A stretch of DNA of 64,000 bases from Chitinophaga pinensis. GTDB lineage: Bacteria > Bacteroidota > Bacteroidia > Chitinophagales > Chitinophagaceae. This document shows, in pieces, positions 33,078-35,214 of this stretch (position 1 is its first letter; each line of letters begins with the position of its first letter). A model generated the notes under the pieces. It had not been told where the DNA came from, searched no databases, and was given only the letters and a program-made list of their open reading frames with translations. The translations under genes were made by a program, and so were the position numbers. The stretch spans positions 58,448 through 122,447 of the forward strand of contig CAMDFC010000001.1 of assembly GCA_945897185.1 (NCBI GenBank), in the 5' to 3' direction.

Positions 33078-34181
33078 CTAGCTTAATACAACTTTCACCA
33101 TGTAAATATGGTCTTGTACCTTCTTTGCTTGTTCTGGCTTTGAAGCACCTTTAAGTGTAGAAGCTGCTTTCAAATTGATGTTTTCGTCTTTATCCGATTT
33201 TTTAATTTCATCTACTAGGCTATATATGTATTTTGCCTTGGTAGCAAACACAACACCGTTTGCGGATGCTTGTCTTGCATTGAGAATTCCAATCACTTCA
33301 CCACTTTTATTGAAGACCGGACCACCACTGTTTCCGGGGTTGGCCGTGATGGTAATTTGGAAGGACATGGTATCTCCTTGTAAGCCAGATTTCGCACTTA
33401 AATAACCTTCGTCGTATACAATTTCATCTTTAGGGAATCCCATTGTAAATACAGACTCCGCTAAATCAGTTTTAGATTTTCCTATTCCGTAAGGAAGTTG
33501 TCTCAGTCCCTTGAAGTCTTCATCGGTAATCTTGAGGATCGCAATATCCGTGGTGAGGTCAACTTTGATGATTTCAGCCAAATAATCAATGCCTTCAATG
33601 CTTTGAACAAAAACTCTTTTAGCCCCTTTTACAACGTGTGCACTGGTTACCAAATAACCTTTCTGGTCCACCATAAAACTGGTGCCACCAAATTTAACGT
33701 CTGCTCCAGGTTCAATCTTGGTTTTGAAATTATTGATTTCTGCACGTTGGTTGCTGGATTGTTTTTCGAGGTTGCTTACTTTTCTACGAAGTTCTTCAAT
33801 GTCTCTAATTGGACGATTTGGCGTAAAAAAGGTGATTATACCACTGATGAACAAGGCGGTTATGCCAGCAATGGAAGCAGCCACGGCAACAACCCTGCGG
33901 TATTTATTCCACATGTTAATTATGCGCGTACCTGCACTTAATTGCAATTCTTTGATTTCGCCGTTTTCTTGAAGTGTGTGGTGGCTATCATAAAGGTTAG
34001 ACTTAAACCTCCTCAATTCGCCATACCGGCCCATTTCTTCAAAAAAGAAATGGTACTCTACAACCGATTGGTCTAGCTCAGCGTTGTTTTTACGCGCTTC
34101 TTCAAATGCCATTTTTTCCTGAGCATCCATCTCCCCTTTGAGGTATCTTTCTACAACTTCAGCAATCTGTGATTGGTCCAT
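33078..34181 (-). CDS. Anti-sigma-like N-terminal domain + TM + coiled coil + trypsin-like (HtrA/S1C) protease fusion
   Basis: Cytosolic N-term (ERYLKGEMDAQEKMAFEEARKNN), TM RRVVAVAASIAGITALFISGIITFF, coiled coil, catalytic VTSAHVVKG (His), TTDIAILKI (Asp), NPGNSGGPVFN (Ser). Starts 8 nt after the ECF sigma stop. Confidence 0.85.
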   Translation of the reverse strand: MDQSQIAEVVERYLKGEMDAQEKMAFEEARKNNAELDQSVVEYHFFFEEMGRYGELRRFKSNLYDSHHTLQENGEIKELQLSAGTRIINMWNKYRRVVAVAASIAGITALFISGIITFFTPNRPIRDIEELRRKVSNLEKQSSNQRAEINNFKTKIEPGADVKFGGTSFMVDQKGYLVTSAHVVKGAKRVFVQSIEGIDYLAEIIKVDLTTDIAILKITDEDFKGLRQLPYGIGKSKTDLAESVFTMGFPKDEIVYDEGYLSAKSGLQGDTMSFQITITANPGNSGGPVFNKSGEVIGILNARQASANGVVFATKAKYIYSLVDEIKKSDKDENINLKAASTLKGASKPEQAKKVQDHIYMVKVVLS

Positions 34182-34189
34182 TTTTAGAG

Positions 34190-34753
34190 TTATCCGTTTT
34201 TATATTGAGCGAAGAACAGTTTTTTTAACCTCACGAGGCATTTATATTTCTGGTTCTTTGCATTGTCTGCGTTGGTGTACCCAAAAAAACCTGCTATTTC
34301 ATGCATATTTTTTTGGTGAACATAGTAAGCTTCAATTAGGCTCTTGCAAGGTTCTCCAATTTTCCCCATGGATGTTCTCATGTTTTGGTACTGCAAGCTC
34401 AGTTTTTCATGATCCTCCAAGTCTTCCTCCACCGAAACCACTTTGTCAAAATTCTCAACCCTTGATTCAATTCTTCTGGCATATTGCAACTTCTTTAACC
34501 AAAGTCGCCTGCAAACAGAATAGAGGTAGGTCCGAATTTGACAGGTCAACTCAAAATCCTGCTGCTTTGCCTTTTCATAGAGCACAATCATGGCTTCTTG
34601 GAAAATATCCCGGGCATCATCTTCCGTTCCATTGTTGTTTACAACAAAATTTTGAATGAGTGTGTAGTTTTCACTGTAAACCGACTCAATCGCCTTCTTG
34701 TCGTTCTTGCCAATGGCCCTAAAAACCGATAACTCCTGATCTTGAATTGCCAC
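34190..34753 (-). CDS. ECF-type RNA polymerase sigma factor
   Basis: ENYTLIQNFVVNNNGTEDDARDIFQEAMIVLYEK (sigma2), CRRLWLKKL, CKSLIEAYYVHQKNMHEIAGFFGYTNADNAKNQKYKCLVRLKKLF (sigma4). Longest ORF starts at 34798; the shorter GTG start at 34753 is preferred because a promoter-like motif lies inside the N-terminal extension. Confidence 0.85.
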   Translation of the reverse strand: MAIQDQELSVFRAIGKNDKKAIESVYSENYTLIQNFVVNNNGTEDDARDIFQEAMIVLYEKAKQQDFELTCQIRTYLYSVCRRLWLKKLQYARRIESRVENFDKVVSVEEDLEDHEKLSLQYQNMRTSMGKIGEPCKSLIEAYYVHQKNMHEIAGFFGYTNADNAKNQKYKCLVRLKKLFFAQYKNG

Positions 34754-34763
34754 AATACAGTTA

Positions 34764-34794
34764 TTTAATACCTGGGTAGGCTTTTTTGTAACCC
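34764..34794 (-). promoter_or_regulatory. Candidate ECF promoter, sigma-gene copy
   Basis: Minus strand GGGTTACA(34794-34787)-N15-GTATTAAA(34771-34764); both blocks identical to those on the divergent side. Confidence 0.6.
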
Positions 34795-34825
34795 ACAAAG
34801 CAACAAAAAAAAATCTTTTAATTAC

Positions 34826-34855
34826 GGGTTACATTCTTTTACTTTGCGTATTAAA
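34826..34855 (+). promoter_or_regulatory. Candidate ECF promoter, lipoprotein-gene copy
   Basis: GGGTTACA(34826-34833)-N14-GTATTAAA(34848-34855), 39 nt before the lipoprotein ATG. Confidence 0.6.
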
Positions 34856-34894: not shown

Positions 34895-35074
34895 ATGAAA
34901 AAGTTTTTCGCAATCTTGGCTATCGTAGCCCTAGCATCATGTGGTGGTGCTTCTGAAGCTCCAGCTGCTGACTCAACTGTTGTTGAAGCTCCTGCAATGG
35001 ATTCTGCTGCTCCTGCAATGGACACTACTGCTCCAGTTGTTGATACAACTGCCGCTGCTACTGAAGCTAAGTAA
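34895..35074 (+). CDS. Small Ala/Pro/Asp/Thr-rich lipoprotein (59 aa), absent from ORF track
   Basis: Hand translation: MKKFFAILAIVALASCGGASEAPAADSTVVEAPAMDSAAPAMDTTAPVVDTTAAATEAK*. Lipobox-like LASC; followed by a terminator. Confidence 0.88.
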   Translation: MKKFFAILAIVALASCGGASEAPAADSTVVEAPAMDSAAPAMDTTAPVVDTTAAATEAK

Positions 35075-35103
35075 GCTTTTTTTCATATGGCAAGCAATCG
35101 TTG

Positions 35104-35137
35104 AAGTCGTTCCGTTTTCACGGAATGACTTTTTTTA
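35104..35137 (+). terminator. Intrinsic terminator after lipoprotein gene
   Basis: AAGTCGTTCCG-TTTTCA-CGGAATGACTT (one G-U pair) followed by a T tract. Confidence 0.8.
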
Positions 35138-35214
35138 TTTAGTTGAAAATCAACTACTTGCCATATTCCCTATTTTATCTGCCCCATTAAAGTTACCTTT
35201 GCAAAAATAGTAGT

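Follow-up and report, generated by a model that had tools for sequence, protein, structure and literature searches.

The locus between an ECF sigma factor gene and a divergent small lipoprotein gene of Chitinophaga pinensis raises the question of which factor reads the bipartite motif that it carries, in two oppositely oriented copies, and which genes that motif controls. In the window, the whole stretch of 64,000 bp that was analysed, the same two 8-mers were found on both strands with near-equal spacing, exactly at the positions claimed in an earlier note: on the minus strand GGGTTACA-N15-GTATTAAA spans 34794-34764, and on the plus strand GGGTTACA-N14-GTATTAAA spans 34826-34855. These two are the only matches in the window even when gaps of 10-20 are allowed, none of 100 dinucleotide-preserving shuffles of the window gave any match, and within the 2.29-Mb genome they are again the only exact copies, while the reversed control pattern gave 0; the judgement of that note that a chance origin is unlikely is thus upheld. 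The box pattern is present as it was described, but GTATTAAA is better given as GTATTAA; the conserved core is one base shorter for each box. The predicted sigma-side promoter (34764..34794, minus strand) consists of the -35 box GGGTTAC (34794-34788), a spacer of 16 and the -10 box GTATTAA (34771-34765), and the predicted lipoprotein-side promoter (34826..34855, plus strand) of GGGTTAC (34826-34832), a spacer of 15 and GTATTAA (34848-34854). With a probability of about 0.9, the two GGGTTAC-N15/16-GTATTAA elements represent divergent -35/-10 promoters of this ECF sigma, which would direct the expression of its own operon, the lipoprotein and a few unlinked genes.

The sigma factor gene (34190..34753, minus strand) was confirmed by a profile match above cut-off (TIGR02937, E 8.6e-14), Pfam detecting region 2 alone (Sigma70_r2). 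In the protein model, helices at 19-93 and 108-186 form the sigma2/sigma4 fold, for which SigL, sigma-E and AlgU were the best Foldseek matches, together with SigW, and this composition of sigma2 and sigma4 domains only, joined by a short linker, is that of the ECF (group IV) factors. The classical description of ECF factors includes AAC in the -35 and CGT in the -10 of their promoters (PMC8103513; PMC3426412), but the defining features were later narrowed to the sigma2/sigma4 architecture (PMC8103513). Unlike canonical ECF/anti-sigma operons (PMC8103513), the present boxes GGGTTAC and GTATTAA contain neither AAC nor a conserved CGT, the base before GT being unconserved. The earlier note had placed the sigma gene beside the motif, which holds for the gene itself; its listed open frame from TTG 34798 would swallow the motif, and the orthologs point instead to GTG 34753, a probable start located 11 nt past the -10 box. 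When the reading frame is followed from the -10 at 120 ortholog loci with a good motif, the start codon met first is GTG at 113, TTG at 5 and ATG at 2, in most cases at a distance of 9-13 nt from GTATTAA. Transcription by ECF sigma factors usually starts 5-8 nt after the -10, and therefore the predicted leader of the sigma mRNA is only a few bases long; judged from the sequences, the mRNA is probably nearly leaderless throughout the family.

For 123 loci with an ortholog of the sigma (protein identity 36-100%), the upstream regions were then aligned. Relatives of the sigma are present in 76 of 99 related genomes; they belong to the Chitinophagaceae, among them Segetibacter, Ferruginibacter, Terrimonas, Flavihumibacter, Hydrotalea and Lacibacter. 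Autoregulation from a bipartite promoter is usual among ECF sigmas (PMC8103513; PMC3426412). A promoter-like motif, GGGTTAC-N15/16-GTATTAA with at most 2 mismatches, is kept upstream of the sigma gene at 120 of the 123 loci; a good site was missing at two sigma orthologs (L129 and L130) of the early set. The -35 box GGGTTAC hardly varies among these 120 loci, with 1.9-2.0 bits per column, and the -10 box GTATTAA is conserved at 1.6-2.0 bits, while the spacer is far less conserved (0.05-1.0 bits), its length being 15 in 66 loci, 16 in 52 and 14 in 2. Region 4 of the sigma is likewise almost invariant (FGYTNADNAKxQKYKCLxRLKK), as would be expected with a fixed -35. At 113-114 loci the divergent copy is retained as well, again within 2 mismatches; its spacing is 15 in 90 and 16 in 24, and the lipoprotein frame begins 25-45 nt past this copy at nearly all loci. 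Lack of conservation at orthologous loci had been named beforehand as the observation that would count against the promoter assignment; both copies are kept across the family.

At our locus this divergent target is a small Asp/Thr/Ala-rich lipoprotein of 59 aa (34895..35074, plus strand) with the lipobox ...LASCGG, and a Cys at the lipobox position is present in all 113 ATG-initiated frames (113/113) that follow the divergent arm. Its similarity to PG1828_fam_lipo (E 2e-8, 34.8 bits) stays below the NCBIfam cut-off of 50. Just past the gene, a hairpin followed by a T run (35100-35136, CGTTCCGTTTTCACGGAATGACTTTTTTT) is likely to be an intrinsic terminator.

On the genome scale, GGGTTAC-N14-16-GTATTAA is carried by 115 of 147 family genomes, with at least about 150 matches family-wide as compared with 30 in all for the reversed control. 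By contrast, among 23 genomes of the same order without a sigma match, the motif was found in 1, as a single match, and a phylum-wide sample gave matches in 16 of 198 genomes. Outside Chitinophagaceae, genomes with multiple matches are nearly confined to a second family of the same class; in all 5 of its genomes that were examined, a motif immediately precedes the gene for a sigma ortholog (44-50% identity). This second family also includes tandem paralogous lipoprotein genes, each with its own promoter copy (L258 1613-2273, L259 1193-1537). Speaking against the assignment, one genome of the genus (G005, an assembly of 580 contigs) is without a close sigma ortholog, yet a distant CBM-like gene of this genome is preceded by a site with 1 mismatch. 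The genome scan, which the earlier note had proposed, thus revealed that the motif co-occurs with the sigma, and it added further recurrent targets.

For identification of these targets, 40 extra family matches were examined. The recurrent unlinked targets are a 96-aa AMPK1_CBM/CBM48-like protein (match to AMPK1_CBM, E 9.6e-8), a secreted protein of about 145 aa and small lipoproteins, each preceded by one copy in one orientation, in which the spacing of the two boxes is fixed; some other matches belong to the sigma gene itself, where the partner arm is weakened, and about a fifth of the matches examined fall within reading frames and look like chance. Within the genus, the motif is located at a near-constant 18-26 nt before the ATG of the CBM-like gene, often with the -10 variant GAATTAA, and the orthologs of this target with a clear start use ATG, in contrast to the GTG of the sigma. 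In the own genome, ATGTTAC-N15-GTATTAA lies 21 nt before the start of the CBM-like gene (G000:C43:5035-5063) and is a probable third target. A 2-mismatch scan of this genome was at chance overall (22 matches versus 29 for the reversed control), and of its matches the C43 site alone has support, on account of its orthologous position; no homolog of the secreted protein of about 145 aa was detected in the own genome. Its recurrence at other genes suggests that the motif marks a small regulon, not mapped before, which the sigma would activate along with its own gene.

From the arrangement of the two arms, a dimeric DNA-binding regulator could also be considered, with the inverted pair TGTAACCC...GGGTTACA as its operator and not as two sigma sites. 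In favour of this reading, the -35 blocks do make an inverted repeat, and the distance from GGGTTAC to GGGTTAC clusters: it is 30-34 bp at the majority of loci and 41-44 bp at some 17-19 others, with none at 35-40. These distance classes, between which at least 6 changes took place on the sigma tree, look like a helical-turn preference. The separation of the two -35 boxes, however, ranges from 30 to 501 bp across loci while the box-to-box spacing within each arm stays at 15/16, GTATTAA is nearly as conserved as GGGTTAC, and at the unlinked targets only one oriented copy is present, with the spacing of its two boxes fixed. We therefore rejected the inverted-repeat operator, which we consider extremely improbable. 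The plus-strand copy might alternatively be an ordinary primary-sigma or TAnnTTGY promoter with TTTTACTTTGC in the spacer: the spacer element TACTTTGC (34840..34847, plus strand), close to the Bacteroidota -7 boxes (PMC9723704), fits TAnnTTGY, and TTACTTTG, read one base shifted, is one mismatch from TAnnTTTG (PMC9723704), so that an exact sigma-A box in the plus arm was rejected by base count. This element is unconserved, being TACTTTG in 17 of 25 close relatives and TACTTCG in the remaining 8, and the wider family is without such a box while GGGTTAC and GTATTAA stay, which makes this explanation highly unlikely; TACTTTGC may add basal activity in this subclade. The fixed box spacing, the variable arm distance, the single directional unlinked copies and the co-occurrence with the sigma thus favour promoter elements of the present ECF sigma over both explanations.

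That another ECF sigma of the same genome reads the motif, with the present sigma gene merely as one of its targets, is conceivable inasmuch as the specificities of ECF sigmas can overlap and several ECF candidates are present per genome, but from genome to genome, and also in the second family, the motif goes with this sigma, and region 4, like the -35, hardly varies, for which reason we regard such an assignment as very improbable. The claim of the earlier note that these are the -35/-10 elements of this sigma, with autoregulation and a divergent target, is accordingly supported computationally by the family conservation and the motif-sigma co-occurrence.

The gene 8 nt downstream of the sigma (33078..34181, minus strand) encodes a candidate membrane anti-sigma with a helical N-terminal region, for which the model is of moderate confidence only, one likely membrane segment and an HtrA/DegS-like serine protease domain. 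The protease domain was detected by the profiles Trypsin_2 (E 3.9e-23) and degP_htrA and by fold matches to MucD, DegS and HtrA1, and the catalytic triad H182, D212 and S285 is invariant among 26 orthologs. The trypsin-like fold with a His-Asp-Ser triad agrees with the HtrA/Deg proteases, but the C-terminal PDZ domain of that group gave no Pfam match, and the protein ends about 40-50 aa past the protease domain. In nearly all orthologs the partner has the same architecture and adjoins the sigma gene, start and stop often overlapping. From this position and layout we infer an anti-sigma fused to a protease, whose protease domain could be the site-1 protease for the partner itself or for a neighbouring molecule.

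In the circuit that we propose, the free sigma would transcribe its own operon leftward, consisting of the sigma gene and the membrane protease-fusion gene, and the small surface lipoprotein rightward, and it would act at unlinked loci on the 96-aa glycogen-binding-like protein and, in relatives, on the secreted protein of about 145 aa and further lipoproteins; its release would probably proceed via the membrane partner and the HtrA-like protease domain. As a wider proposal, made tentatively and as possible rather than probable, this may be a compact envelope-stress circuit of Chitinophagaceae, in which anti-sigma and site-1-like HtrA protease are combined in one polypeptide, and an atypical promoter with a nearly leaderless, GTG-started mRNA controls small lipoproteins and a glycogen-binding-like protein.

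This organization resembles RpoE-RseA of E. coli (PMC8103513) in the sigma2/sigma4 sigma beside a membrane partner, here a candidate one, in the bipartite promoter with a spacer near 15/16 upstream of the sigma gene itself, and in the envelope proteins among the predicted targets. It differs in that DegS and RseA of E. coli are separate proteins, whereas the partner here bears the HtrA-like protease domain in the same chain. As with the ECF41 group (PMC3426412), a group-specific -35 emerged from the aligned upstream regions of orthologous sigma genes, and the targets are few; the ECF41 promoter, TGTCACA-N16-CGTC, is different in both -35 and -10, and ECF41 has as its own feature a fused C-terminal extension thought to be its regulator (PMC3426412). 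Among Bacteroidota, alternative sigma promoters are also represented by SM6 (CGT box) and SM5 (TAnnTTGY) of Flavobacterium psychrophilum (PMC9723704), one of these classes including an ECF/anti-sigma pair (PMC9723704), but their -10 sequences are unlike the present one, and the SM6 targets are type IX secretion genes (PMC9723704) in place of lipoproteins and CBM-like proteins. In the literature searched, among which the largest ECF classification was not included, we found no published description of a GGGTTAC/GTATTAA promoter, and no ECF regulon or ECF promoter for Chitinophagaceae. This family of Bacteroidota is large and lives in soil and freshwater; with a promoter for which any genome can be scanned, the unnamed small lipoproteins, the CBM48/AMPK1_CBM-like protein and the secreted protein become a single regulon that is open to testing, and the clear pairing between sigma region 4 and the -35 should be useful for the prediction of ECF specificity. 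In contrast to the paired motif, the sequence TTACCTTTGC at 35194-35210, upstream of the DEAD-box helicase gene, carries an exact TAnnTTTG primary-sigma box.
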